NCBI RefSeq assembly: GCF_024721305.1
Contig: NZ_JAMXOD010000002.1
Coordinates: 124,001 to 188,000 of the forward strand
DNA from: Aequitasia blattaphilus
GTDB taxonomy: Bacteria; Bacillota; Clostridia; Lachnospirales; Lachnospiraceae
Length of the DNA stretch: 64,000 nt
Reading direction: 5' to 3'
In this document: positions 51,741 through 64,000 of the stretch, piece by piece
Layout: each line of letters begins with the position of its first letter
Numbering within the stretch: the stretch's first letter is position 1
Program-made: the position numbers and the translations under genes
Notes under the pieces: generated by a model
Databases searched by the model: none
Seen by the model: the letters and a program-made list of their open reading frames with translations, nothing else
Told to the model about the DNA's origin: nothing

Positions 51741-53237
51741 TTACATATAACTTCCCGGGGATGTTCCAAAGCAGTCCACACCGTAGGAATCATTGAGCTG
51801 AGGATCATAGATTTGTCCATTAATTACAACCCAGCCATGAACATGCCATCCACTTCCCCATACATTCAGCATTCCTGAACGGATTTGTGTATCGGAATAT
51901 CCCAGTCTTTTTGCCACTTGTCCAAACAAAGCTGCATAAGAATAGCAATTCCCGCTTCTTGTTTCCCACATGTTGATTGCATGCCACTGTTCCCAAGTAT
52001 ACTCGTCATTTCCATATGGGGTCCCAAACATTGTACGGTAAGAGCAATTGTCCAGAATCCATTGGTAACATGAATGAAGGTTCCATCCTGCCTGGCTAAT
52101 GAGTTGATCCACCACCTCTTGAACGGCTCTTTGTGCATCCTTTAACCAGATTCCATCTGCATTTACATCATAACCATCCGGAGTTTTCTCATTCACAAAC
52201 ATCCTTCCAGTTGTCTGATCAAAATAGTGCCAATTTCCATTAATCAAAGACCAGCCAAATACTTTTCTGCCGCTGCCATTATAGTAATAGGTCTTTCCTT
52301 CGTGATTCAACCAACCGGTAAACATTGCACCACTTGACTGCAGGAAATACTGTCCGTCACTCAATTGTATATATTCGCTCTTTGCCATTACCCCATTCTC
52401 ATACAGGTAATACCATGCGCCGTGAACGTAAGCCCAGCTGTTTTTCACCATTGCACCGCTGGAATTGTAATAAAACCAGCTCTCTCCATACTGGAACCAG
52501 CCAGTAACCATCCTTCCACTGCCATTAAAGGTATAAGTTGCCCCTCCAATATCCAAAGTCTGATTTGCAGCCATAACACCATTGTCTTTTAAGTAGTACC
52601 AAACTCCGCCTTGATTCAGCCAATTCTTCTTCATCATAGCACCACTTCCAGTGTAGTAATACCATGTTGTTTCGTATTGGAACCAGCCTGTAATCATGGC
52701 TCCTGAACCACGGAAGCTATAGGTAGCACCGCCAATGTCCAAGGTTTGATTGGATGCCATTACTCCATTCTCATTGAAGTAATACCAAATACCATTTACA
52801 TAGGCCCAGTTGCTCTTAACCATCCCACCATCATAGCGATAGTAGAACCACATATTCTCATATTGAAACCATCCACGAATCATCAGCCCATTTCCATTAA
52901 ATGTATAGGTCTGGTTATCGATGTCTAAGGTCTGATTTTTTGCAAGTTTCCCATCTGCTTGCATATAGTACCAGTTATCTCCCTCTGCAATCCACTTTGC
53001 TTTAGAAGTGTCTTCTGTTTGCAATGCCGTTTCCACAGGTTCCTCAACAGTCTGAGGCTCTATCTCTTTTTGCTCTTCTTGCGCTTCTTGCCCATCTTCT
53101 GTATCTGTAACTGCTACCTCTGTTTCTTGTTCAATCGTTGCCTCTTCTGGCTCTTGTGCATAGGCTGCTGTTGAAAATGCCAAGCAGAGAATACTCACGA
53201 TTAATCCTATCCGGATTCTTCCCATAATTTTTTGCAT
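51741..53237 (-). CDS. Secreted transglutaminase-like protein with cell-wall-binding repeats (498 aa)
   Basis: Exported protein with signal peptide 1-27 (ending AAYAQ), an acidic spacer to about 75, then about fourteen WYY/WFYY cell-wall-binding repeats in a very regular three-repeat superunit (TLDIG.ATY.F.GSGAM and similar). The C-terminus is a transglutaminase/protease-like domain (about 380-498) with the triad Cys in RSGNCYSYAALF, His in GWHVHGWVV and Asp in IYDPQL. The start is the ATG nine bases after GGAGGAGG. It may be a wall cross-linking or peptidase enzyme. It leads the MBOAT/DHHW/lipoprotein operon. Confidence 0.9.
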   Translation of the reverse strand: MQKIMGRIRIGLIVSILCLAFSTAAYAQEPEEATIEQETEVAVTDTEDGQEAQEEQKEIEPQTVEEPVETALQTEDTSKAKWIAEGDNWYYMQADGKLAKNQTLDIDNQTYTFNGNGLMIRGWFQYENMWFYYRYDGGMVKSNWAYVNGIWYYFNENGVMASNQTLDIGGATYSFRGSGAMITGWFQYETTWYYYTGSGAMMKKNWLNQGGVWYYLKDNGVMAANQTLDIGGATYTFNGSGRMVTGWFQYGESWFYYNSSGAMVKNSWAYVHGAWYYLYENGVMAKSEYIQLSDGQYFLQSSGAMFTGWLNHEGKTYYYNGSGRKVFGWSLINGNWHYFDQTTGRMFVNEKTPDGYDVNADGIWLKDAQRAVQEVVDQLISQAGWNLHSCYQWILDNCSYRTMFGTPYGNDEYTWEQWHAINMWETRSGNCYSYAALFGQVAKRLGYSDTQIRSGMLNVWGSGWHVHGWVVINGQIYDPQLNDSYGVDCFGTSPGSYM

Positions 53238-53414: not shown

Positions 53415-54326
53415 TTATTCCCATGCACCATACACCATCGATGAAATATCCGCTATTCGTTTTTGTGCTGTCGTACTATCCTGCAGATTGGACGACATTA
53501 CACATATGACATATGCCTTCTCACCTTTCCATATAATAGCCACATCATTCTCTACCCGATCCAGTTCTCCCGTTTTATTTGCTGATACACTGCCTTCAGG
53601 TAATCCACTTGGAATCTTATTTCTTCTCTCCTGATTTTTCAAGCAATCCAATATAAACTCCGAACCTGGAATCTCATTCTTATAGATTTTCTCCAAAAAT
53701 AGCCCACAGTCTTTTACTGAAGTATAATTATCATCCGAAGCATTTAAATCCAACATCACTCTCCCAATATGAGTGTTTTCATATCCATATTTTAATAAAT
53801 AAGCGTTTATGCGTTCAAAACCCACGACATTATTGCCTTCTCCGATTCGTTGTATAAGTGTATTGGTTGCATCATTGTCACTAATTGTCAGCATATTTCG
53901 GAGGAGCTCTTCCGTTTCTCCGTCAAAGCTTTCTCCGGCTTTAAGAATTTCCCAATTTTCATAAACTGTTCCTGCTATAAATAACTTGATTAAACTTGCT
54001 GACTGCATTTTTGTATTGCTGATTTCAACCATTTCATCTGTCATCAAATCTTTCAAGTATACAGCCCAAGTTTCCTGACTTTGAATACCAGGTTGGAGCA
54101 TCCCCTCTATTTCTCCCTGGAGATTTGTCAAAGGAGTTGGCTCTTCAACTGCCGGTTGTGGCTGCACCTCTTGCTGCTTTTCCTCTTCTATAACAAGCTT
54201 TTCTGCTTCTTTTTCGATCTGCACTTCTTCCTCGACTATCTCTTCTTCCTTACTGCATCCCATTGAAAATAGCATTAAGGAAAGAAGAAACAGTGCAGCA
54301 AGTTTTTTCTTTTTACTCATATCCAT
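53415..54326 (-). CDS. Class A beta-lactamase-fold serine hydrolase lipoprotein lacking Glu166 (303 aa)
   Basis: Lipoprotein (Cys24 in LFSMGC) with an acidic spacer and a class A beta-lactamase-like domain (about 75-303). Ser111-x-x-Lys114 (SLIK), Ser149-Asp-Asn (SDN) and Lys251-Thr-Gly (KTG) are present. The omega loop, normally RxExxLN with general base Glu166, reads RVMLDLN, so that Glu is Met191. Without it deacylation of beta-lactams should fail; a penicillin-binding or sensor role is more likely than resistance. It overlaps the amidase gene by 14 bases and is the last gene of the kinase operon. Confidence 0.86.
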   Translation of the reverse strand: MDMSKKKKLAALFLLSLMLFSMGCSKEEEIVEEEVQIEKEAEKLVIEEEKQQEVQPQPAVEEPTPLTNLQGEIEGMLQPGIQSQETWAVYLKDLMTDEMVEISNTKMQSASLIKLFIAGTVYENWEILKAGESFDGETEELLRNMLTISDNDATNTLIQRIGEGNNVVGFERINAYLLKYGYENTHIGRVMLDLNASDDNYTSVKDCGLFLEKIYKNEIPGSEFILDCLKNQERRNKIPSGLPEGSVSANKTGELDRVENDVAIIWKGEKAYVICVMSSNLQDSTTAQKRIADISSMVYGAWE

Positions 54327-55146
54327 AATATTGATTAATTCCTTTTACAATGCCAGAGACCATTTTCTGACGCATACTCTCATCCGCCATACTCTGATCA
54401 TCCTGTTGATTTGTCATAAAGCCCATTTCTAATATAATGACTGGGATGTTGCTCCAATTAATTCCCGTCATTGTATCATTTTCCTGTATCCCTTTATTGC
54501 TAAATCCGGTTGCTTCACAGTAACTATTTAGTACCAATTCTCCCAGACGTCGGCTAGGTTCATAAAGAGAAGGAATGTATGGATTCCCTGCGGATGGGGT
54601 CAACACAAGAGCTCCCATAGCTTCCGCATTTTCACTTCCATTTGCATGGATACGAACACTGATATCTGCACCTCTTTCATTTGCAAGAGTTGCACGTTCC
54701 ATATTGCTGATGGCTGTATCATTATCCTCACGGGTAAGCAAAACATCATAGCCTTGCTGGATCAGTGCATCTCGCAGCATGAGTGAAATATCCAGATTTA
54801 GCTGATATTCCGGTATCCCTGTAAACCTCCCCATCGTTCCTCCAGTTGCTTTTGCTTTCATCTCTGAGGAGCCAGGAGCATTCGGTTCCAATGCACTCAT
54901 ATCTACATGTGCCCCTTGATGCCCAGGATCAATCGCAATAAGAATCCCCTTTTTCACTGGCTCTGTATCTTGTTCCGTATCCTCTTCCTCTACCTTGGGC
55001 TCTTCCACTTGCTCTTCTATCTGTTGTTTTTTCTCTGGAATAATGAGTTTCGAAACACTATCCTCTTCCTTTGTATTCTCACTGCATGCAGTGATGAAAA
55101 TGAAAAAAGTGCAGATTAAAATAACAAACTTAATTTTCTTCTCCAT
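54313..55146 (-). CDS. N-acetylmuramoyl-L-alanine amidase, Amidase_3 lipoprotein (277 aa)
   Basis: Zinc amidase that removes stem peptides from peptidoglycan glycans. Lipobox FITAC (Cys21), Glu-rich spacer, then the Amidase_3 domain (about 67-275). Zinc ligands are His in IAIDPGHQG, Glu in IPEYQLNLD and His in RIHANGS; the catalytic Glu is in VIILEMGFMTN. It follows the YARHG gene by eight bases and overlaps the serine hydrolase gene, so it is part of the kinase/zinc-ribbon operon and links that operon to the cell wall. Confidence 0.93.
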   Translation of the reverse strand: MEKKIKFVILICTFFIFITACSENTKEEDSVSKLIIPEKKQQIEEQVEEPKVEEEDTEQDTEPVKKGILIAIDPGHQGAHVDMSALEPNAPGSSEMKAKATGGTMGRFTGIPEYQLNLDISLMLRDALIQQGYDVLLTREDNDTAISNMERATLANERGADISVRIHANGSENAEAMGALVLTPSAGNPYIPSLYEPSRRLGELVLNSYCEATGFSNKGIQENDTMTGINWSNIPVIILEMGFMTNQQDDQSMADESMRQKMVSGIVKGINQYYGYE

Positions 55147-55154
55147 AACTATAC

Positions 55155-55889
55155 CTAATTTGCATCAAGCTGATAACCTGAGGATGACATAGAAAATTCC
55201 ACGTCGCTTAAAAACTCAGCATTTTTCTTCTCAGTGTCTGACAAAAGATCATTGCTAAAATTTTCTGGCTGTATCGTCCCTCTGTACCATGACTTTGAGT
55301 TGAAATAGTTACTCAGCTCAGGTGATTGGAAAATTCTCCCTTTTCTCGCATAAATTTCGTTCTTGGCATAATTGATTTCTCTCAAACTCATACCCTTTAT
55401 ATCCGAAGAAGTTAAAATTCGTTGATGGCTATAAGAAATCATATAACCTGATGATGCATTGCTATTTGTTGAGGATTTATTTTCCGCTTTTTTCTCACTG
55501 GCTTCCTTCGCTGCCTTTGCTTCTTTTTTCGCTGCATCCGCTTCTTCTTTCGCTTTTTCAGCTTCTTTTTTCGCTTCCTCTATCTCTTTATTGGTTAAGG
55601 CATCCTTCGCAGCTTCTGCTTTCTTTTTTTCCTCTTCCAATTGTTCCTTTAATTGTCGTTCTACTTTTGCCGCCTCTTCTTTTTTTGCATTGTTTATCCG
55701 AACAAAAAAGAATCCCGCCACTCCTGCTATCAAACACACTACTATAATGACCGATATCAGAACAATGTGAGTATTAGACTGCTTTTTTACAGGTTGCTCA
55801 TATTGTTTTTGCGCCTCTAAAGCAGTACCACATTCCTCACAAAACTTCGCTTCTACAATATTATCATGTCCACAATTTTTACAAATCAT
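55155..55889 (-). CDS. Zinc-ribbon, transmembrane, coiled-coil and YARHG-domain protein (244 aa)
   Basis: An N-terminal cytoplasmic zinc ribbon (CKNCGHDN and FCEECGTA, residues 3-22) is followed by a TM helix (about 42-63) and a long charged coiled coil of Glu/Lys/Ala heptads (70-145). The C-terminal YARHG domain (about 155-230, NEIYARKGRIF) should lie outside. YARHG domains are common in surface proteins near peptidoglycan enzymes. It sits between the double-zinc-ribbon membrane protein and the amidase. It could relay between cytoplasm and wall; that is inference. Confidence 0.85.
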   Translation of the reverse strand: MICKNCGHDNIVEAKFCEECGTALEAQKQYEQPVKKQSNTHIVLISVIIVVCLIAGVAGFFFVRINNAKKEEAAKVERQLKEQLEEEKKKAEAAKDALTNKEIEEAKKEAEKAKEEADAAKKEAKAAKEASEKKAENKSSTNSNASSGYMISYSHQRILTSSDIKGMSLREINYAKNEIYARKGRIFQSPELSNYFNSKSWYRGTIQPENFSNDLLSDTEKKNAEFLSDVEFSMSSSGYQLDAN

Positions 55890-55912
55890 ACCCTGCTCCC
55901 TCCGTTATTTTC

Positions 55913-56773
55913 CTATTCTACCGGAAAACCACATTCCTTACAAAATTTATACCCAGGCTTTAGTTCCGAACCACATTGTTTGCAATTCATAATTGCTACT
56001 GAACTTCCACATGCGTTGCAGAATTTCGCCGAGTCATTTAATGAGTTTCCACATTTTGCACAAAACCTTCTGGGGATTGACGTACTCGAAAATGTTACAC
56101 TCTTTTGACTTCTTCCTACAAAAGCTGCTGCAACGACAAATGCCAGGGCTAAAAATGGCCAAAATGTCATAGATAATAGTTTTGTATGTTGATCAGCTAA
56201 AAACTCTGCATCTCTAAACATCTTATTCAGTTTGCTTATCAACGTCATAATCGTAATCAACCACACTCCTTGAATCACAATAAGTGGAATTCCAAACCAC
56301 TTTTTCTTCAAAAACAGTAATATAATCGATACAATATATATGAGTACCGTTATGATACACAAGCCCTGATAGAACGTATTATAAGTCTTAATATCATCAA
56401 TTATTTTTTGCTCTTCGGATCCAAGTTCTTCATCCATAAGGGCAAGGGCTTTCTCCCCGATTCCCAGCATACTGTCCGTTGTTTTCAAAACATAAGACCC
56501 ATCACGAACTGACAACCCGCCTTTTTGAATTACCTTCTCTACTTTTTTCATGAATGTCTCTAGTTTAGGCATACTTATTTTAATCCCAAAAGCTTCTGCC
56601 ATATCCATATACTCCATCGCTTCTTCAATTTCATAAGCAGCAGATTCATAGGCTTCTTCCAGCTCTTCACGATAGCTTCGATGCACGGTTACCCAATTCA
56701 TGAAAAACATTAACGCCGCCACACCTATTAGTACTAAAGCAATCCATTTTCTTTGTTCTTGATTTGTTTTCAT
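55913..56773 (-). CDS. Membrane protein with two C-terminal zinc ribbons (286 aa)
   Basis: One helix at about 12-30, a helical outside region (35-125) and two or three further helices (about 135-225). Then come two consecutive cytoplasmic zinc ribbons: FCAKCGNSLNDSAKFCNACGS (about 235-255) and CKQCGSELKPGYKFCKECG (about 263-281). No enzyme motif is visible. It lies in the middle of the kinase operon, 23 bases before the YARHG gene. Function unknown; the zinc ribbons suggest protein-protein contacts with the other zinc-ribbon products of the operon. Confidence 0.8.
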   Translation of the reverse strand: MKTNQEQRKWIALVLIGVAALMFFMNWVTVHRSYREELEEAYESAAYEIEEAMEYMDMAEAFGIKISMPKLETFMKKVEKVIQKGGLSVRDGSYVLKTTDSMLGIGEKALALMDEELGSEEQKIIDDIKTYNTFYQGLCIITVLIYIVSIILLFLKKKWFGIPLIVIQGVWLITIMTLISKLNKMFRDAEFLADQHTKLLSMTFWPFLALAFVVAAAFVGRSQKSVTFSSTSIPRRFCAKCGNSLNDSAKFCNACGSSVAIMNCKQCGSELKPGYKFCKECGFPVE

Positions 56774-56802
56774 TTCTCCTTCTCTCTTCCACTTTAAAAT
56801 AA

Positions 56803-56997
56803 TTATACTTCTACTTTATTGCCACACTTCATACAGAATTTAGCATCTGCATCAATTTTTTCTCCACAGGAAGTACAAAACTTTGTATTAAAGGCGGCAA
56901 TCTTATTCACTGCTGGCATTAAATCTGGTATACTCCTACTCTTCTCACTTTGATAAAATGCCTTCCCCAATTCTTTATATAATGTATTCACATCCAT
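56803..56997 (-). CDS. Small zinc-ribbon protein (64 aa)
   Basis: Soluble small protein. An N-terminal helix (MDVNTLYKELGKAFYQ) and a C-terminal zinc ribbon (FCTSCGEKIDADAKFCMKCG, residues 41-60) are visible. The N-terminal helix resembles residues 24-55 of the next upstream product (LYVDLGKQYYDRFKTNPLPELKPIV), so it looks like a free copy of that protein's cytoplasmic head. Ribosome site AAGGAA lies nine bases before the ATG. Function unknown. Confidence 0.78.
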   Translation of the reverse strand: MDVNTLYKELGKAFYQSEKSRSIPDLMPAVNKIAAFNTKFCTSCGEKIDADAKFCMKCGNKVEV

Positions 56998-57018
56998 CTC
57001 TATTTACCTTCCTTTTCT

Positions 57019-57963
57019 CTAGTAATATGAATTCAACAAATCCCAAACATTAAACTGACTCATCATATATTCTTTTGCACCTGCTGAAATAAGTGCAAAA
57101 ATGATTAAAATAATAATGAAAAATATTATCTTGGCTACCATAAAAATATAAAGCTTCTTATCTTCTGTGCATTTTACAATTGAGCGAAAACATGCAAACT
57201 CAACAAAAGGCACTACTATCATCATACATGCCATAATAAAGAGTGCAGCTTTAACACTAATCAATACTCCTAATGCCACAAAAATCATCCCTATGCTGTC
57301 ATATAATGCTTTTGTTCCTACCCAGGTGATCATTTCTGAATACGTTGTGTGTACATTAAAGGCTCTGGAAACCATATTACAAAACCATGCCCAGAAAGCA
57401 TCTACACCAAGGCTGAAAACAATTACTGCAAAAAAGATTTTCAGATAAGGCAGCTCTACAAACCATCCTGCAAAATCATCCACCTTAAGCACTACAATTA
57501 GAGTTACCAGTATAGCCAGAACCATCTTAGCAATCACAAATTCCATTCCAATTGCCACTGATTTCGTCTCTGCAATTTTCGTTGTCTTTGTGACAGGATT
57601 CTTCAATATGGGAATAATTTCCTGGAACATATTTTTTGCTCCTGAAATTACCTGTGTGCTTTTTTGATTAATCCACATAGCTTCTTTGGTCTGATGGAAA
57701 CTTCCCCCTTCCAGAGGATTTCCACAACCCTTGCAAAATTTATCCCCTATCTCATATTTATTCCCACATGCCTGACACTTATTATCTCCCAATTCAGTTT
57801 TCAATTGTTCAACAATAGGTTTTAGCTCTGGTAATGGATTCGTTTTAAAACGGTCATAGTACTGCTTTCCTAAATCCACATACAATTCATCTGGTACTTC
57901 CTGTTTTTGCACCTCTTGATTATTTTCATAATTTACAAATACTGTTTCATCTAAATCTCCCAT
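57019..57963 (-). CDS. Zinc-ribbon membrane protein (314 aa)
   Basis: A cytoplasmic N-terminus (1-110) holds a helical segment (DELYVDLGKQYYDRF) and a zinc ribbon (CQACGNKYEIGDKFCKGCG). A membrane domain of about five helices follows (150-300), with a Yip1-like look. The membrane domain is paralogous to the 45651-46346 product beside the CHAP gene. ATG follows AAGGAGAGAG. It is placed behind the 46-aa membrane peptide and before the small zinc-ribbon gene. Function unknown. Confidence 0.8.
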   Translation of the reverse strand: MGDLDETVFVNYENNQEVQKQEVPDELYVDLGKQYYDRFKTNPLPELKPIVEQLKTELGDNKCQACGNKYEIGDKFCKGCGNPLEGGSFHQTKEAMWINQKSTQVISGAKNMFQEIIPILKNPVTKTTKIAETKSVAIGMEFVIAKMVLAILVTLIVVLKVDDFAGWFVELPYLKIFFAVIVFSLGVDAFWAWFCNMVSRAFNVHTTYSEMITWVGTKALYDSIGMIFVALGVLISVKAALFIMACMMIVVPFVEFACFRSIVKCTEDKKLYIFMVAKIIFFIIILIIFALISAGAKEYMMSQFNVWDLLNSYY

Positions 57964-57974
57964 TTTCTCTCTCC

Positions 57975-58115
57975 TTACTCTTCTCTAATATTTTCTAAAA
58001 GAACTTTTTGTTGGCGTTTAAATCGACTCTTTCTTTTCAAAAATAGTATGATACTTGTAATGCATCCCGTGCATCCAAGTGCAATCGGCATTATTATTTT
58101 CAAAAAACTAATCAT
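57975..58115 (-). CDS. Small single-pass membrane peptide (46 aa)
   Basis: Reading frame MISFLKIIMPIALGCTGCIT... with one helix (about 3-26) and a basic, then charged tail. Its ATG overlaps the kinase stop codon by eight bases and is preceded by GGGGTGG four bases upstream. It ends 11 bases before the next gene. It fits exactly between two operon genes, which supports it as real. No family recognised; a regulator or partner of the kinase is possible. Confidence 0.65.
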   Translation of the reverse strand: MISFLKIIMPIALGCTGCITSIILFLKRKSRFKRQQKVLLENIREE

Positions 58116-60108
58116 CAAACCACCCCTTATTTTCCAATTGAGCATACGTCTGCCTCAATAAATCCATCTCTGCATCTGTTGGTAACCCTTCATCTGAATA
58201 CAATTCCATCGATTGATTAAAATATTCTCTAAACTCGTAATAGCTTCTACTGTTCTCTGAAATTGTTTCTTGCTTTTGCATTTCTACAAATGCAAATCGT
58301 TTGTAGATATTATAATCCTCACCATACTCATCCAGCATCTTATTAAGTACATCCTCACTTTGGGTGAGTTCTTCTTTTTTTAGATAAATTACTGCCAAAC
58401 TATCATATGTGTTATAAGATTCCCAATTCTTCTCTACTATTTTATTGATACACTCAATCCCATCATCTAAGTATTCTTCACTTTCATCTCCCATTGAAAT
58501 ATCTATTGCAACCAGACTATTGAGTAAATAAAATTGCTTTTCTTCTGGGATTTCTTCAATTCCTCTTAGTAAAACTTCTCTCGCCTCAACCTTTGCTTTT
58601 TGAGAGTTTAATATTTGACTCTGCTTAAGGATTGAACGCATCTTCATATCCATATCTTCTGTCAGCTTTTCACACTCTCTGAATTCCACCAAAGCGGCTT
58701 TCTTATTAGACATTTCCAGTTGAATTTCACCTTTTACATAGGAAATGCTATCTGCCTCTAATCCCAGTTCCTGGGCTTCATCAAGAATCACTTTCGCATA
58801 ACTTGTATCACCATCTTTTGCCAAGGCGATTGCATAATCTCTAAAATATATTGGCTCACTTTTATTGAAATCAATAACTTTCTCGTAGGCGCTGACCGCC
58901 TCAGAATATTTTTCCAGATTATAAAGGGCATCTGCCTTCAAGTAGTATATGTCATCCATCCTTTGCTCATCAATTTCGATCTTTTCATCCTCAAATATCT
59001 CATTGTCTATATAAGCAATACATTTCTGATATTCCTTCTTCTTTGATAGACCAAAGGCATGTTGATAATAAACTTCAACTTCATGTTGATCAATATTCTT
59101 TGCCTTATTGTAATACTCCTCTTCTGCTTCAAAATCTTCCTCTTCAATGGCTTCCATTTGAGCTTCTATATACGTATTATAATTATTTCCTCTAAATTCC
59201 TGATATTCCCATATCCCAAGAACAACTAAGAAAAGAGAAGCAAAAAAAAGGCTTATTATACCAATCGTTTCAAGTGTCTGCCTTTTTATTAAACGTCGGT
59301 AAAGATAATTATCTTTTCCGAGCTGCAAAAGTGCCTGCTCCATTTCATAGGCATTTTGAAAACGCTCATTGGAATCGCATTTGGTTACCTTGTCAATAAG
59401 GGTTGCAAAGGATTCATCTGTCCAATTTGCCAGCAAAGCGTAATTAATACCGCCATTGAATGTAGCAATTTTCTGCCCAGTGGCAATATAATACATGCAC
59501 GCTCCTAAGCTGTATAAATCTGAACGCTCATCAATCTCTTCGTCTGGTAAGGCTCCCGAAACCACCATACTGTATTGCTCTGGCGAGGTATATCCTCTCG
59601 TATAGCCCCAGACTTTACTATCGTTCATATAAAAGGCAATATTAAAGTCAATCAGACAGATTTTTCCCTGAGGTGTCAACATAATATTCGCCGGCTTAAT
59701 ATCTCCATGAATAATTGGTGGCCTTTGGCTATGTAAATAACGAATTGCCTCACACAACTGAAGCGTCCATGCTAAAATTTGTTGTTTACCATATCTTCGT
59801 CCTTCTGAAATCAGCTCATCAAAAGACTTTCCCTCTATATAACTCATAACGATGTATACGTAATTTTCTTCTGAAAAGAAATCCATGACTTGAGGCAAGT
59901 ATTCATGATTCAAGTTTTTCAAAATATCTACTTCTCTACGGAGTCTCTCGTCGGAATATCCTCTTCTTTCCACTGATTTAATCACAACATATTTTTGTAA
60001 TCTTCTATGGTAAACCTTATAGACTACACCCGATCCACCTCGCCCGATTACTTGCCACTTCTCTTTTTTACCATAAGATGATTCTATGTCATTATATTCA
60101 TTCGTCAT
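58108..60108 (-). CDS. Transmembrane Ser/Thr protein kinase with extracytoplasmic TPR region (666 aa)
   Basis: An N-terminal Hanks-type kinase domain (about 15-270) has the glycine loop IGRGGSGVVYK, Lys44 (VVIKSV), catalytic loop HGDIKPANIM (134-143), metal loop DFN (154-156) and GYTSPEQYS. HRD is HGD and DFG is DFN, so it is a non-RD kinase. One TM helix (281-300) leads to a TPR-rich region (about 320-650) that should be outside. No PASTA domains, so it is not PrkC/Stk1. The start ATG lies one base after the stop codon of the FHA-ABC gene. Confidence 0.92.
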   Translation of the reverse strand: MTNEYNDIESSYGKKEKWQVIGRGGSGVVYKVYHRRLQKYVVIKSVERRGYSDERLRREVDILKNLNHEYLPQVMDFFSEENYVYIVMSYIEGKSFDELISEGRRYGKQQILAWTLQLCEAIRYLHSQRPPIIHGDIKPANIMLTPQGKICLIDFNIAFYMNDSKVWGYTRGYTSPEQYSMVVSGALPDEEIDERSDLYSLGACMYYIATGQKIATFNGGINYALLANWTDESFATLIDKVTKCDSNERFQNAYEMEQALLQLGKDNYLYRRLIKRQTLETIGIISLFFASLFLVVLGIWEYQEFRGNNYNTYIEAQMEAIEEEDFEAEEEYYNKAKNIDQHEVEVYYQHAFGLSKKKEYQKCIAYIDNEIFEDEKIEIDEQRMDDIYYLKADALYNLEKYSEAVSAYEKVIDFNKSEPIYFRDYAIALAKDGDTSYAKVILDEAQELGLEADSISYVKGEIQLEMSNKKAALVEFRECEKLTEDMDMKMRSILKQSQILNSQKAKVEAREVLLRGIEEIPEEKQFYLLNSLVAIDISMGDESEEYLDDGIECINKIVEKNWESYNTYDSLAVIYLKKEELTQSEDVLNKMLDEYGEDYNIYKRFAFVEMQKQETISENSRSYYEFREYFNQSMELYSDEGLPTDAEMDLLRQTYAQLENKGWFDD

Positions 60109-60109
60109 A

Positions 60110-62437
60110 TTATCGCCTATCCTTTGAAACACGCCTTAAGACAATCATACTCAATACAACACAAACTAAAGCCATACCTATCAGCACACTCCAGTTTACC
60201 ACCAAATGCTTTGCAGTATGTTCAAAAAACTTTTCTGCTTTATGTGTCAACATTGGAAAGTCCTTTTGCATTTTTAAATCCATTTTATTCAGATTTGCAA
60301 TACTTCCCAAATCTTCCACAGCCCATCGGCTAATAGTAATTTTTGAAATAATATCTCCAACTCCTTTTAACTTAAACAGAATGCCTGAGAAAATCAATTG
60401 AACGATTAAGATAAAAGGTGCTATTACCATTGCTTTATCTGCATTTCTTACCATGGAAGATACCAAGAGTCCTATGGCGGATGCCGTAAGTACTGTAATC
60501 CACATAGTCAGAGACATCTCTACAAAAAGATTGTCGAAAAATATTCCTTCTTTGTTTTTTCCAACTAAAAGCAGGAAAATACATGTTAAAAGTAATGCTT
60601 GTATCAAACATAAAATTACCAACAGAGAAAATTTCGCACCAACATATGCAGGCAAGCGTAAATTTCCCATATACTCTCTTCGAACCATTGCTCTTTCTTT
60701 ACAGACTTCCTGTATTGAATTGAAAATTCCAATCCATATTCCAGAGCAACAAAGAGCAAATAGAATCGATTTCGTAGGTTCATATATAGAAAACACATCT
60801 TTTTCTGAAACAACCTTTAAAAGAATAGCAATAATAATTGGTTGTAAAACTAAAAGCATAAGCCTGGCCTTATCCTGAAAAAGTAAATCCATTGAGCGGG
60901 TAAACAAAATACCATATTGTCGTAATCCAGAATTCTTTCTCGTCTTTCCCTGAGACTTTCCGGAGCTTTCTTCTCCGCCACGAATTTCCGTTAAATCTGC
61001 CTGGTTCTGGCTCTGTGCAAAATACTCTGCCCAGCCATCTGTATTTTCTTCAAGAATATTATAGATATCTACAAAATCAGATGTTTTGAAAAACGTTCTC
61101 GCTTCCATTGGTGTCCCGCTAAAACATAATCGTCCACCACTTCCCATGAAAATTACTCGATCACATAAGTCAATGTTTTGAGTCGTATGGGTAACCATAA
61201 TAATGGTTTTATTTTGACTTTTAGACAATGCAGAAAGCGTCTCCATTAGCTTCTTTTCCGTTCCCGGGTCAAGACCTGATGTTGGCTCATCTAAAAAGAA
61301 AAGTTTCGGATCCGCCAGCAATTCCACCGCTATGCTGGCTCGTTTCTTTTGTCCGCCCGATAACTTTCGAATACAGGTATCTTTATGGATCGTCATATTA
61401 ATCGTCTCTAAGACTAGATCAATCCTTTCCTCTATCTCCTCTGTCGATGTATCATCTGGCATCTTTAACTTCGCCGCATAATAAAGCATCTTATATAGCG
61501 TTAAGTTTTCATATAAAATCTCTTCTTGTGGCACAAATCCAATCAAACTCTTTAGCTCTTGAAAACGACTAATCAAATTAGTACCATTAACATAAACCTT
61601 ACCTTCAAATTCTTTGTCGAAACCACTGATTAAATTCATAATTGAGGACTTACCTGCCCCGGAACCACCTACGATTGCAACAAACTCATTCGGCTTAATT
61701 TCCAGACTAACATCATTGATAATCGCTTTCGGCTGACTTCCTCTTCCGTTCTTTACCACCTTCGTAAGTTGTAATGCCTTAATTCCCAAACCTTCTTGGC
61801 GATTCAGATAGAAAATAGCATTTCTAGTATAGATAATCTGTTGGTCTAATATTTGAATCACATCTTTGTCATACAACGGTGTAACACCATTAATTACAAA
61901 ACCATTCAGGAGTGTTCCATTTGCACTCCCTAAATCAGACAAATAGAAATGTTCTCCTCTTTTTTCAATAATGCAATGATTTCTTGATACTCCTGGATTT
62001 GAGAACTGAACACTGTTGCCCTTACCTCTTCCAATTGTCACAGAGCCTTGGTCTAATTCGCTATAGTACCATGTGTTTTCACCTTGTAATTCATTGTAAA
62101 TAAGTAAAACCATGTAATCCGGATTTTTAAGGTTCCCGATTTTTAAAATCGTGTTATTAACCAGCTCCACGTATCCATATGCTTTATTCAAAAGAATTCT
62201 CTCTGAATAGTTCTCCAAATAAGTTCCATTGCTGCTATCATTGTCCCGGTAATAAACCTTGTCACCGCTAATGTAAAAATCTCCCTGACACTTTGAAACC
62301 ATCTCATCTGGAATAACAATATCACAAACATTACTGTTTCTGCCAACAACTAGATTTTCCTTTCCATGTTCTCCCAGATTGTATTCCGTAATAGTTCCCT
62401 GTGAATCAATAATTGTTAAATTATGTGTCATTTCCAT
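60110..62437 (-). CDS. FHA-FHA-ABC exporter fusion, ABCG-type half transporter (775 aa)
   Basis: FHA1 (about 8-100) has VGRNSN and SSNGTYL but a degenerate SKCQ in place of SxxH. FHA2 (115-205) is canonical: GR136, Ser151-x-x-His154, NG at 173. The ATPase (218-450) has Walker A GGSGAGKSS, signature LSGGQKKR, Walker B LFFLDEPTSGLD and the MVTHTT H-loop. About six membrane helices (515-770) follow, giving the NBD-TMD order of ABCG/ABC-2 exporters. Two FHA domains plus an adjacent kinase mirror Mycobacterium tuberculosis Rv1747 with PknF. Substrate unknown. Its ATG directly follows the TPR gene stop. Confidence 0.92.
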   Translation of the reverse strand: MEMTHNLTIIDSQGTITEYNLGEHGKENLVVGRNSNVCDIVIPDEMVSKCQGDFYISGDKVYYRDNDSSNGTYLENYSERILLNKAYGYVELVNNTILKIGNLKNPDYMVLLIYNELQGENTWYYSELDQGSVTIGRGKGNSVQFSNPGVSRNHCIIEKRGEHFYLSDLGSANGTLLNGFVINGVTPLYDKDVIQILDQQIIYTRNAIFYLNRQEGLGIKALQLTKVVKNGRGSQPKAIINDVSLEIKPNEFVAIVGGSGAGKSSIMNLISGFDKEFEGKVYVNGTNLISRFQELKSLIGFVPQEEILYENLTLYKMLYYAAKLKMPDDTSTEEIEERIDLVLETINMTIHKDTCIRKLSGGQKKRASIAVELLADPKLFFLDEPTSGLDPGTEKKLMETLSALSKSQNKTIIMVTHTTQNIDLCDRVIFMGSGGRLCFSGTPMEARTFFKTSDFVDIYNILEENTDGWAEYFAQSQNQADLTEIRGGEESSGKSQGKTRKNSGLRQYGILFTRSMDLLFQDKARLMLLVLQPIIIAILLKVVSEKDVFSIYEPTKSILFALCCSGIWIGIFNSIQEVCKERAMVRREYMGNLRLPAYVGAKFSLLVILCLIQALLLTCIFLLLVGKNKEGIFFDNLFVEMSLTMWITVLTASAIGLLVSSMVRNADKAMVIAPFILIVQLIFSGILFKLKGVGDIISKITISRWAVEDLGSIANLNKMDLKMQKDFPMLTHKAEKFFEHTAKHLVVNWSVLIGMALVCVVLSMIVLRRVSKDRR

Positions 62438-64000
62438 CTATTCTTGTCCTTCCGCGTAGTCACTGCGCACTCCATATCTTTCGAAAACCATATCGTATAT
62501 TCGCCCATCCGGTTCAACTCGATACAAAAAACTTGTCACTATATGAGTCTCCATATCGTCAAAACCTCGGTAAATTTCTCCCTCTGTCGAGGGCGAACCT
62601 GGCTCTAATTCTACATACTCCGGGATATATTCACCCTTTTCCCGCAGAATACTTAATAAATATTCCCTATTATCTCTGGGTTGTTCTTCTTCCTGATCCT
62701 CACTATCTTTTCTGAGAATTTCATTCGCCTCTTCATACACTGCCATATTAATAATAACTTTATCTGTCCCATCCGTTGTAAATGTTGAAGCATCCTTGAT
62801 ATTGCCTTCTTCATCAACTCGGGTAGAAACACCATTGAAATAAAGTAACGCATCACCTTCTATTTCCGAAAAATCATAGGACAATAAATAGTTCTCACTG
62901 ATATTTTGAGCGCTTTTTTCTAAGCCCCAGGCTTCTAACTTCTCAATGGTTTCTAGATTTTCTTCCTCAAAGTCAACAAACCCGCTCCCAATATAATCTG
63001 CCTTTATATACTCTTCAAATCCATTCGTTGTATATTGAACAGCAAACATTTGTAAATGAGAACCTGATGCAAACGTAAAAAGGTCAACCTTTGCATCTCC
63101 ACATATATATAGGTTTCCATCCTTCTCTTGAAGAAAAATCTTACCAACCTCTGAATCTCCATAGCCCATTACGTCTTCAAACATCGCATATTTATGCAAA
63201 GGGCGCAACGCACCCTTATGCTTTTCATACATTGTCATTGTTAGGATATTTCTCTCTTGATAAAAATGAGCAGCTTCCACTTCACCCTCATTTTCATAAG
63301 GCTCTATATTAATCGCCAAAATCTCATCTATATCATCATGATCAAAATCATATGTATAAGTCGCAATAGCACCACTTTTTTCTATTTGCTGTACTCCACC
63401 ATCTTCTAGATAAGAACACTCAAATGGACCCAGGCCTATCTCCTCCCCCGATGAAAAGATTCGCTCTGTTTCCTTTGTTGCTTTTACATCACATGCAATA
63501 TTAAAGACGGGTTCTACTTTCTTTTCTGTTTTTTCTGCTTTTACTTTTTCTTCCTTGGTCTTATCTTTATCTGCGGTTTTCTCAGTAGATTCTTCTTTTT
63601 TTTCTTCATGCTTTTTTTCTTTATTGGTTTTTACTTCTTCTAAAGCTTTTTTAGCCTCTTCATTATTTTCATCTTTTTCAACCACTTGGTTTAACTTTTC
63701 TTCTGCCTTATCATATTCTTCCAGCTGATTATAGGAATTCCCGGCTGCAACTTGTAAGTTATCGCTTTCTTTATCTGGAATTTTATCTATCCCATCCTCA
63801 TATACATCAACAGCTGCTTCATAATCACCTTCTTCTTCATATAAAGTACCTAGCTGAATATATGCATCCTTCTCTTTCGGATTGATTTTAATTGCTTTTA
63901 GATATTCTGCCTTCGCTTTATCGTAATCTAAGGCTTCTAAATAACGATTGGCACTATCCAATCTCGTTTGATACTTTCTCTCTTTTTGTTGTCCAAACAG
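62438..64000 (-). CDS. TPR protein, 5' end beyond window (at least 520 aa)
   Basis: The frame is open to the right edge; 13 codons lie before the TTG at 63961, beginning LFGQQKERKYQT, so the true start is outside. TPRs cover roughly the first 120 visible residues (YLEALDYDKAKAEYLKAIKINP and following). A Lys/Glu-rich linker (about 120-165) leads to a globular domain of about 340 residues with a DFDHDDIDE repeat resembling FG-GAP/EF-like calcium motifs. No catalytic motif is seen. It leads the visible part of the operon and abuts the FHA-ABC gene. Probably extracytoplasmic, but the signal sequence is not visible. Confidence 0.8.
   Translation of the reverse strand: MFGQQKERKYQTRLDSANRYLEALDYDKAKAEYLKAIKINPKEKDAYIQLGTLYEEEGDYEAAVDVYEDGIDKIPDKESDNLQVAAGNSYNQLEEYDKAEEKLNQVVEKDENNEEAKKALEEVKTNKEKKHEEKKEESTEKTADKDKTKEEKVKAEKTEKKVEPVFNIACDVKATKETERIFSSGEEIGLGPFECSYLEDGGVQQIEKSGAIATYTYDFDHDDIDEILAINIEPYENEGEVEAAHFYQERNILTMTMYEKHKGALRPLHKYAMFEDVMGYGDSEVGKIFLQEKDGNLYICGDAKVDLFTFASGSHLQMFAVQYTTNGFEEYIKADYIGSGFVDFEEENLETIEKLEAWGLEKSAQNISENYLLSYDFSEIEGDALLYFNGVSTRVDEEGNIKDASTFTTDGTDKVIINMAVYEEANEILRKDSEDQEEEQPRDNREYLLSILREKGEYIPEYVELEPGSPSTEGEIYRGFDDMETHIVTSFLYRVEPDGRIYDMVFERYGVRSDYAEGQE

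Follow-up and report, generated by a model that had tools for sequence, protein, structure and literature searches.

Do the genes of a tightly packed unit that encodes a Ser/Thr protein kinase, an exporter with FHA domains, several zinc-ribbon proteins and two cell-wall enzymes work as one system? The question is raised by positions 53,415 to 64,000 of a 64,000-nucleotide stretch of Aequitasia blattaphilus DNA, which we refer to as the window (G000:C12:124001-188000 in our genome set; the source genome comprises 3.2 Mb in 60 contigs). Related genomes show two modules. Module A consists of a zinc-ribbon/TPR protein, an FHA-FHA-ABC exporter, the kinase, a micropeptide and a small zinc-ribbon protein, and module B of a YARHG protein, an amidase and a PBP-A-like DD-peptidase. 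The unit is modular and not one fixed system, because the amidase lies apart from the kinase in three relatives and is widespread, the exporter is rare, and the kinase occurs without the exporter in two genomes. We propose, with a probability of about 0.5, that the unit is a membrane phospho-switch for envelope export, in which kinase, adaptor and FHA exporter form a path with an optional wall arm.

A unit of at least eleven genes

Calling of open reading frames (ORFs) over the whole window gave ten minus-strand ORFs between 53415 and 64000, with spacing that ranges from overlap to 29 bp. The first-pass annotation of this DNA had described the same ten tightly packed genes, and the families that it assigned are borne out by Pfam and topology, with a 46-residue peptide that has no Pfam match. 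Its ten-gene extent needs correction: the ten ORFs are real, and the TPR gene is truncated by the window edge. The contig beyond the window shows a longer first gene and a further gene for a protein with a zinc ribbon and a transmembrane (TM) helix, and the unit therefore has at least 11 genes. At its full length the TPR gene encodes 570 residues, the part beyond the window contributing a zinc ribbon and a TM helix; the eleventh gene (ZR0), 28 bp upstream of it, encodes a zinc-ribbon/TM protein of 219 residues. The order is ZR0-ZTPR-ABC-KIN-pep-ZR1-ZR2-ZR3-YARHG-amidase-DD-peptidase, where ZTPR is the zinc-ribbon/TM/TPR protein, ABC the exporter, KIN the kinase and pep the micropeptide. ZR1 and ZR2 are of the small zinc-ribbon (sZR) kind. 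All features of the unit lie on the minus strand.

The kinase (58108..60132; Pkinase 7.7e-42) has a cytoplasmic kinase domain, a TM helix near residue 285 and a TPR ectodomain. Its start codon is GTG, with an alternative ATG at codon 9, and the catalytic residues are retained (K52, E67, H142-x-D144, N149 and D162 of DFN). The exporter (60110..62437, 775 residues) combines two FHA domains, an ABC ATPase and an ABC2 membrane part (Pfam FHA 3.9e-30, ABC_tran 8.9e-28, ABC2_membrane 1.1e-18). Taking the FHA motif positions to be GR, SxxH and NG, and reading them by eye, the second FHA domain keeps all of them and the first has Gln replacing His. ZTPR (62438..64000, cut by the window edge) matches Pfam TPR and has its zinc ribbon at C12:188076; in a profile search against the PDB, zinc-ribbon/TPR proteins gave matches confined to the TPR stretch, with none in the C-terminal part.

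These domains are concentrated in the unit. Only two Pkinase domains score above cut-off genome-wide, the other belonging to a PASTA kinase that adjoins a PP2C gene. Two of the three FHA domains of the genome are those of the exporter, and Zn_Ribbon_1 domains are found within the unit in six of six cases above the Pfam cut-off and in seven of nine at E<=0.01. The third FHA domain belongs to a split gene pair for an FHA-ABC ATPase and a membrane protein (L049:9088-14458), which adjoins a SpaA-type surface protein.

A kinase-based system for defence against phage or stress would be a different explanation for this gene set, and one that we consider highly improbable. The kinase matches models of defence kinases such as mad6 and PD-T4-6, but nearly all displayed matches are confined to the kinase domain, MkoA alone extending to residue 383. 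Among the eight proteins scanned, the ABC protein has matches to three ATPase models, and all but this protein and the kinase (six proteins) have no PADLOC match at 1e-10. The defence role was dropped since the eight proteins gave kinase and generic ATPase matches only, and the full MADS or PD-T4-6 gene set was not found.

The kinase module in related genomes

Genome counts cover one family, with 398 genomes for the FHA-FHA-ABC protein and 396 for the amidase; a search of the contig set with the kinase had returned one distant relative only, and whole family genomes were searched instead. Exporter matches at E<=0.001 (195 of 195 genomes) were rejected as a measure because ABC ATPases occur in every genome. 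At E<=1e-90 the FHA-FHA-ABC protein is found in 16 of 398 genomes, that of A. blattaphilus included. Close orthologues of the kinase (41-43% over near-full length) are present in seven further genomes: G086, G460 and G717, which are three species of one genus (g85), and G200, G221, G675 and G711.

Genes for the kinase, the peptide, a small zinc-ribbon protein and a zinc-ribbon/TPR protein stand together in all eight genomes. The kinase gene adjoins the FHA-FHA-ABC gene, or is separated from it by one FHA gene, in six of the eight, with the FHA gene in between in five of these six. Wall genes lie beside the kinase in five (A. blattaphilus, G086, G460, G717 and G675), three of which represent a single genus. 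In g85 the order is ZTPR-ABC-FHA-KIN-pep-MEM-ZTPR-sZR-YARHG-amidase-DD-peptidase (MEM, membrane protein), with one extra zinc-ribbon gene in G086. Since this near-identical order recurs in three species of another genus, the grouping goes beyond chance; a search for conserved gene order was among the checks that the first-pass annotation had suggested.

The remaining genomes separate the modules to different degrees. G200 has ZTPR-ZTPR-ABC-FHA-KIN-pep-MEM-sZR, and YARHG-DD-peptidase-amidase on a separate 3.4-kb contig. G221 has ZTPR-ABC-FHA-KIN-pep-MEM-sZR with an amidase about 680 kb away and no DD-peptidase match at E<=1e-10. In G711 the order is FHA-KIN-pep-MEM-sZR-ZTPR-ZTPR, and the amidase, on another contig, has neither YARHG nor DD-peptidase adjoining. 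In G675, KIN-pep is followed by about 0.65 kb with an opposite-strand ORF and then by sZR-ZR-YARHG-ZR-sZR-amidase-DD-peptidase-ZTPR. Modules A and B are thus joined in A. blattaphilus and in the three g85 species, while G675 has the kinase near module B and no exporter. The single kinase-exporter-wall system that the first-pass annotation had envisaged survives in its kinase-exporter neighbourhood and, in part, in the wall genes beside the kinase; as a single system it gives way to a modular one. The scattering of these genes in relatives, which it had named as counterevidence, affects wall genes and exporter to some extent, but none of the four genes that stay together throughout.

The kinase module of G711 is found downstream of a PP2C/PASTA-kinase pair, separated from it by a few genes (L143:140-11725). 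More distant FHA-ABC genes, which adjoin different kinases or FHA genes, were excluded from the counts for this system; the sole such locus that was Pfam-scanned, in G042, contains PP2C, vWA and further FHA genes.

A micropeptide at the kinase stop codon

The peptide of A. blattaphilus (57975..58115, 46 residues, a single TM helix) has its start at 58115, overlapping the kinase stop codon. Peptides of 41-48 residues that have a single TM helix and, at the C-terminus, an LLxxI tail are found at the kinase stop in all eight close orthologues; in seven of them the peptide start and the stop codon overlap, and in G675 the start follows directly. The kinase of G076 is also followed by a peptide of this kind, and those of G392, G080 and G624 by a second type with Y[GD]F as its last residues. 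Together these make up 12 of 41 surveyed kinase ORFs, which came from the loci examined (the G330 kinase reaches the contig end and was left unjudged). An unlike small TM ORF follows three others (G529, G176 and G028). For comparison, a TM ORF of 30-75 residues was found at the stop of 17 of 427 non-kinase genes of at least 200 residues in the same loci.

No small TM ORF was found at the stop of the remaining 26 of the 41 kinase ORFs, which include two of PASTA type, other HRD kinases and the non-HRD kinases of G507, G710, G256, G171 and G072; hence the peptide is a mark of a single kinase branch. Comparison of G086 with G460 shows 13 synonymous and 8 non-synonymous differences over 49 codons, with most change at third positions, as in a coding sequence. 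A literature search of titles and the starts of abstracts returned no such micropeptide subunit of Ser/Thr kinases.

Conserved threonine motifs as candidate FHA ligands

ZR1 (57019..57963) begins with a segment containing DETVFVNYE, followed by a short domain shared among sZR proteins, a zinc ribbon that scores below the Pfam cut-off and five TM helices. ZR2 (56803..56997, 64 residues) has the short shared domain and a zinc ribbon, and neither a TM helix nor the TVFVNY motif. ZR3 (55913..56773) has four TM helices and a double zinc ribbon at its C-terminus.

The N-terminal motif DxTV[FL]VN[YF] is present in sZR proteins of seven of the eight genomes (ZR1 here, and G086, G460, G717, G200, G221 and G711); it was not found in the small zinc-ribbon proteins of G675 and G367, nor in ZR2. 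In a mechanically called set of 898 ORFs (315,594 residues), in which some ORFs are spurious and overlapping stretches have duplicated a few genes, the pattern [DE]xT[VIL][FY][VIL] occurs 18 times: six times in sZR proteins, three times in companion FHA proteins and nine times elsewhere. The G711 motif, which has Leu in place of Phe, falls outside these 18. TV[FL][VIL] within the first 20 residues is found in nine of the 898 ORFs, of which seven are sZR proteins, one is a hydrophobic leader and one lies upstream of the FHA-kinase pair of G710. The latter protein (L150:6818-7828) begins MMERRNYETVFLRDE and may represent a second adaptor family.

Standalone companion FHA proteins of six relatives carry an invariant TV ahead of the FHA domain, in the form [PA]TV[FL] (6/6). 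By eye, no such motif is visible in the FHA proteins of G392, G080, G624 and G710. In the FHA protein adjoining the kinase of G330 (L071:2301-3167), the N-terminal tail contains about eight T[ED] repeats, as counted by eye. FHA domains favour certain residues at the third position after the phosphothreonine. The DxTV[FL]VN[YF] segment of the sZR proteins is a candidate FHA ligand.

The wall module and its link to the kinase

The YARHG protein (55155..55889; YARHG 1.5e-22) consists of a zinc ribbon, a TM helix near residue 36, a charged stalk and a YARHG domain that is extracellular by topology and scores 79.8 bits against a Pfam cut-off of 27, which places it in the family; the YARHG proteins of G675 and G367 have no zinc ribbon. 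The amidase (54313..55146; Amidase_3 3.4e-37, 128.6 against a 27-bit cut-off) is a lipoprotein N-acetylmuramoyl-L-alanine amidase with a lipobox, and its solved relatives are amidases including CwlV and Rv3717. Its zinc-ligand residues were read by eye, at what we take to be the motif positions.

The last gene (53415..54326; Beta-lactamase2 2.3e-38) encodes a probable lipoprotein of beta-lactamase fold, with a lipobox read by eye. Its best solved match is chain 2j7v (TLL2115), which we take to be PBP-A of Thermosynechococcus elongatus. SxxK and KTG are present in 12 of 12 aligned relatives and SDN in 11 (SSN in G218), as in PBP-A-like proteins, and the omega-loop glutamate, at a position assigned by eye, is absent from all 12. 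The lack of this glutamate and an NCBIfam score of 66 against a 200-bit cut-off speak against a class A beta-lactamase. From these motifs, the protein is probably a PBP-A-like DD-peptidase without the omega-loop glutamate.

These enzymes often occur without the kinase. At E<=1e-40, 219 of 396 family genomes contain an amidase relative. Among the 20 best amidase loci, that of A. blattaphilus included, the DD-peptidase adjoins the amidase or is fused to it in 16, being fused in seven, and neither is the case in four; a YARHG gene is present in six of the 20. (Loci were viewed with flanks of up to 1.5 kb, and L076 is cut by the contig end.) The seven Amidase_3/PBP-A-like fusions are 513-627 residues long (L077, L080, L081, L087, L088, L089 and L091), and one that was checked against Pfam has both domains above cut-off. 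In G422, a single protein comprising a zinc ribbon, a TM helix and Amidase_3 (L111:12504-13433) adjoins YARHG-amidase-DD-peptidase.

Two independent units, a kinase/FHA exporter and a wall-turnover set, could lie side by side and be co-transcribed for dosage, neither controlling the other. Besides the frequent pairing of amidase and DD-peptidase apart from the kinase in many genomes, this explanation is favoured by the absence of the exporter at E<=1e-60 from all seven searched genomes that bear the pair (G382, G422, G367, G406, G218, G339 and G212) and by G200, which holds both modules on separate contigs. It is at odds with the kinase-wall linkage in A. blattaphilus, g85 and G675, and with the zinc-ribbon handle that is common to both modules and that G422 even carries on an amidase. 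Phylogeny also bears on it. The amidases of A. blattaphilus, g85 and G675 do not group in a single clade (the nodes that separate them have support of 0.736 to 0.967), which suggests more than one joining, but the DD-peptidase tree groups A. blattaphilus with g85 (0.813); the YARHG tree groups it with G382 (0.958). Because the trees disagree in this way, repeated joining of kinase and wall genes is only possible. On balance we regard two independent units as a serious alternative, though an unlikely one.

The linkage of exporter and wall genes could also mean that the ABC protein is no exporter at all and activates the amidase mechanically, in the manner of FtsEX. In four genomes (A. blattaphilus, G086, G460 and G717) the amidase does share a locus with an ABC membrane protein; however, the membrane part matches ABC2_membrane and not the FtsX family, and the two genes lie apart in G200 and G221, which makes this explanation very unlikely.

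A possible membrane phospho-switch

In the phospho-switch that we favour, the kinase would sense an outside signal through its TPR ectodomain, and the one-TM micropeptide may be a small kinase subunit that tunes or holds it. The active kinase would phosphorylate the small zinc-ribbon protein, here ZR1, on the Thr of its DxTV[FL]VN[YF] segment, and the exporter FHA domains (in relatives also the GarA-like FHA protein) would bind this phosphothreonine. Binding would bring exporter, adaptor and kinase together and thereby gate export; the cargo would be an envelope molecule, most likely a lipid or a polymer linked to lipid. TPR, YARHG and other ectodomain proteins, all anchored in the membrane, would dock onto the same assembly in the cytoplasm through their zinc ribbons, and where module B has joined, amidase and DD-peptidase would trim the wall at the same place.

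Gene content and linkage, the conserved micropeptide, the conserved threonine motifs and the retained FHA and kinase residues are observed. From them we infer phosphorylation, binding, export, substrate, sensing and control over the wall enzymes, the last from linkage. The switch is favoured by the kinase-exporter neighbourhood in six of eight genomes, the concentration of FHA and zinc-ribbon domains in the unit, the rarity of the N-terminal threonine motif outside sZR proteins, its counterpart in the companion FHA proteins, the frequency of small TM ORFs behind close kinase orthologues and the parallel with Rv1747. It also agrees with G675, where neither the motif nor, in the 14.6 kb examined around the locus, an FHA gene is present. 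A more far-reaching statement is put forward more tentatively: a eukaryotic-type Ser/Thr kinase of bacteria would have a dedicated one-TM micropeptide subunit, as PhoQ has MgrB, and would signal via a phosphorylated TV[FL]VN[YF] segment of a zinc-ribbon adaptor to exporter FHA domains, zinc ribbons being the shared cytoplasmic dock for many envelope ectodomains, amidases included.

Several observations weigh against the phospho-switch. The wall genes are separable, with a widespread amidase that lies elsewhere in G200, G221 and G711, and most surveyed kinases have no peptide. The exporter has no match at E<=1e-60 in G675 and G711, which both have the kinase, and is therefore dispensable for kinase retention. 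G675 does not have the TVFVNY motif. A. blattaphilus has no standalone GarA-like FHA protein. As to the substrate, the best solved relatives of the exporter match over the ABC part and are ABC transporters of many kinds, and lipid is suggested by analogy with the mycobacterial exporter Rv1747. A gene for a CDP-alcohol phosphatidyltransferase fused to PLD domains (L065:14466-16469) lies 23 bp behind the small zinc-ribbon gene of G221 and is a weak hint of lipid export.

Borders of the unit

Downstream, a promoter-like site (TTGACA-N17-TATAAT, 53312-53284, minus strand) that matches the consensus at 12 of 12 positions precedes the next gene, which starts at 53237, and this makes 53415 a sensible end of the unit. 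Since promoter-like sites across the region (65 versus 56.8 in shuffled sequence) and terminator-like sites (7 versus 7.9) are near the shuffle level, only this 12/12 site was used. The gene behind it (51741-53237) encodes a protein with choline-binding repeats and a weak transglutaminase-like match.

Upstream, the unit is preceded by a gap of 71 bp, in which there is no terminator-like site and no promoter-like site among those displayed (five weaker sites were not displayed). Further upstream lie, on the same strand, a hexapeptide transferase gene and, after a few more genes, one for a capsule-synthesis PGA_cap protein. Because these genes point the same way, transcription may read in from this polysaccharide cluster. 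No RNA scored above the Rfam threshold in the 20 kb examined.

Comparison with known systems

The individual parts of the unit and the pairing of a kinase with an FHA-ABC protein are already known. The micropeptide at the kinase stop, the threonine motif of the sZR proteins, that of the companion FHA proteins and the concentration of zinc-ribbon and FHA domains in one unit are new. A literature search of titles and the starts of abstracts, which covered few subscription papers, returned no description of this full gene set. To our knowledge, few substrates of Ser/Thr kinases are known in gut Clostridia. At this locus one kinase comes together with a possible phosphosite in a short peptide, potential FHA readers and a potential regulatory micropeptide, each of a size that suits in vitro work. 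The amidase/DD-peptidase pair is available as a single polypeptide in several genomes, and the recurrent zinc-ribbon/TM/ectodomain architecture gains a testable job.

The closest counterpart is found in Mycobacterium tuberculosis. There the kinase PknF shares an operon with Rv1747 (PMC5549992; PMC3908365), an exporter with two FHA domains, a nucleotide-binding domain and a TM domain, whose mutant has less phosphatidylinositol mannoside (PIM) (PMC5549992). By domain layout and neighbourhood, the unit has both features of this arrangement, an exporter of the same FHA-FHA/nucleotide-binding/TM architecture and a neighbouring transmembrane Ser/Thr kinase. The Rv1747 chain 6cah came up only as a weak PDB match of a relative's FHA protein. 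In contrast to PknF/Rv1747, it belongs to another phylum and includes a TPR ectodomain, a TM micropeptide, a zinc-ribbon adaptor with a threonine motif, and wall enzymes. Transmembrane Ser/Thr kinases with an outer domain are also represented by PrkC and the PASTA kinases. Unlike PrkC and StkP, the kinase has no PASTA match, shows HGD/HSD and DFN in place of HRD and DFG, and scores 131 against a 450-bit cut-off with the NCBIfam Stk1 model.

GarA has an ETTS phosphosite in an unstructured N-terminal extension (PMC5448819) and is described as restricted to Actinobacteria (PMC12321487). The short FHA proteins of six relatives resemble it in carrying a conserved threonine motif N-terminal to the FHA domain, and one of them has GarA chains among its weak PDB matches. 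The motif differs from ETTS, and such a protein is absent from the unit in the window.

The glutamate in the omega loop of class A beta-lactamases is missing from PBP-A, which is a DD-peptidase (PMC11189452). Unlike PBP-A, the DD-peptidase described here is a probable lipoprotein, and its relatives often have an amidase as a neighbour or fusion partner.

For zinc-ribbon/TM/YARHG proteins, a link to kinases and peptidoglycan has been proposed (Coggill and Bateman, 2012; PMC3355149), with peptidoglycan binding by YARHG as a published hypothesis and the zinc ribbon as part of a membrane-tethered transcription factor (PMC3355149). The protein of A. blattaphilus has the same layout, with the ribbon inside, a TM helix and YARHG outside. 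The recurrence of the ribbon on many ectodomain proteins beside the kinase/FHA set suggests that zinc ribbons serve as docking parts rather than as part of a transcription factor.

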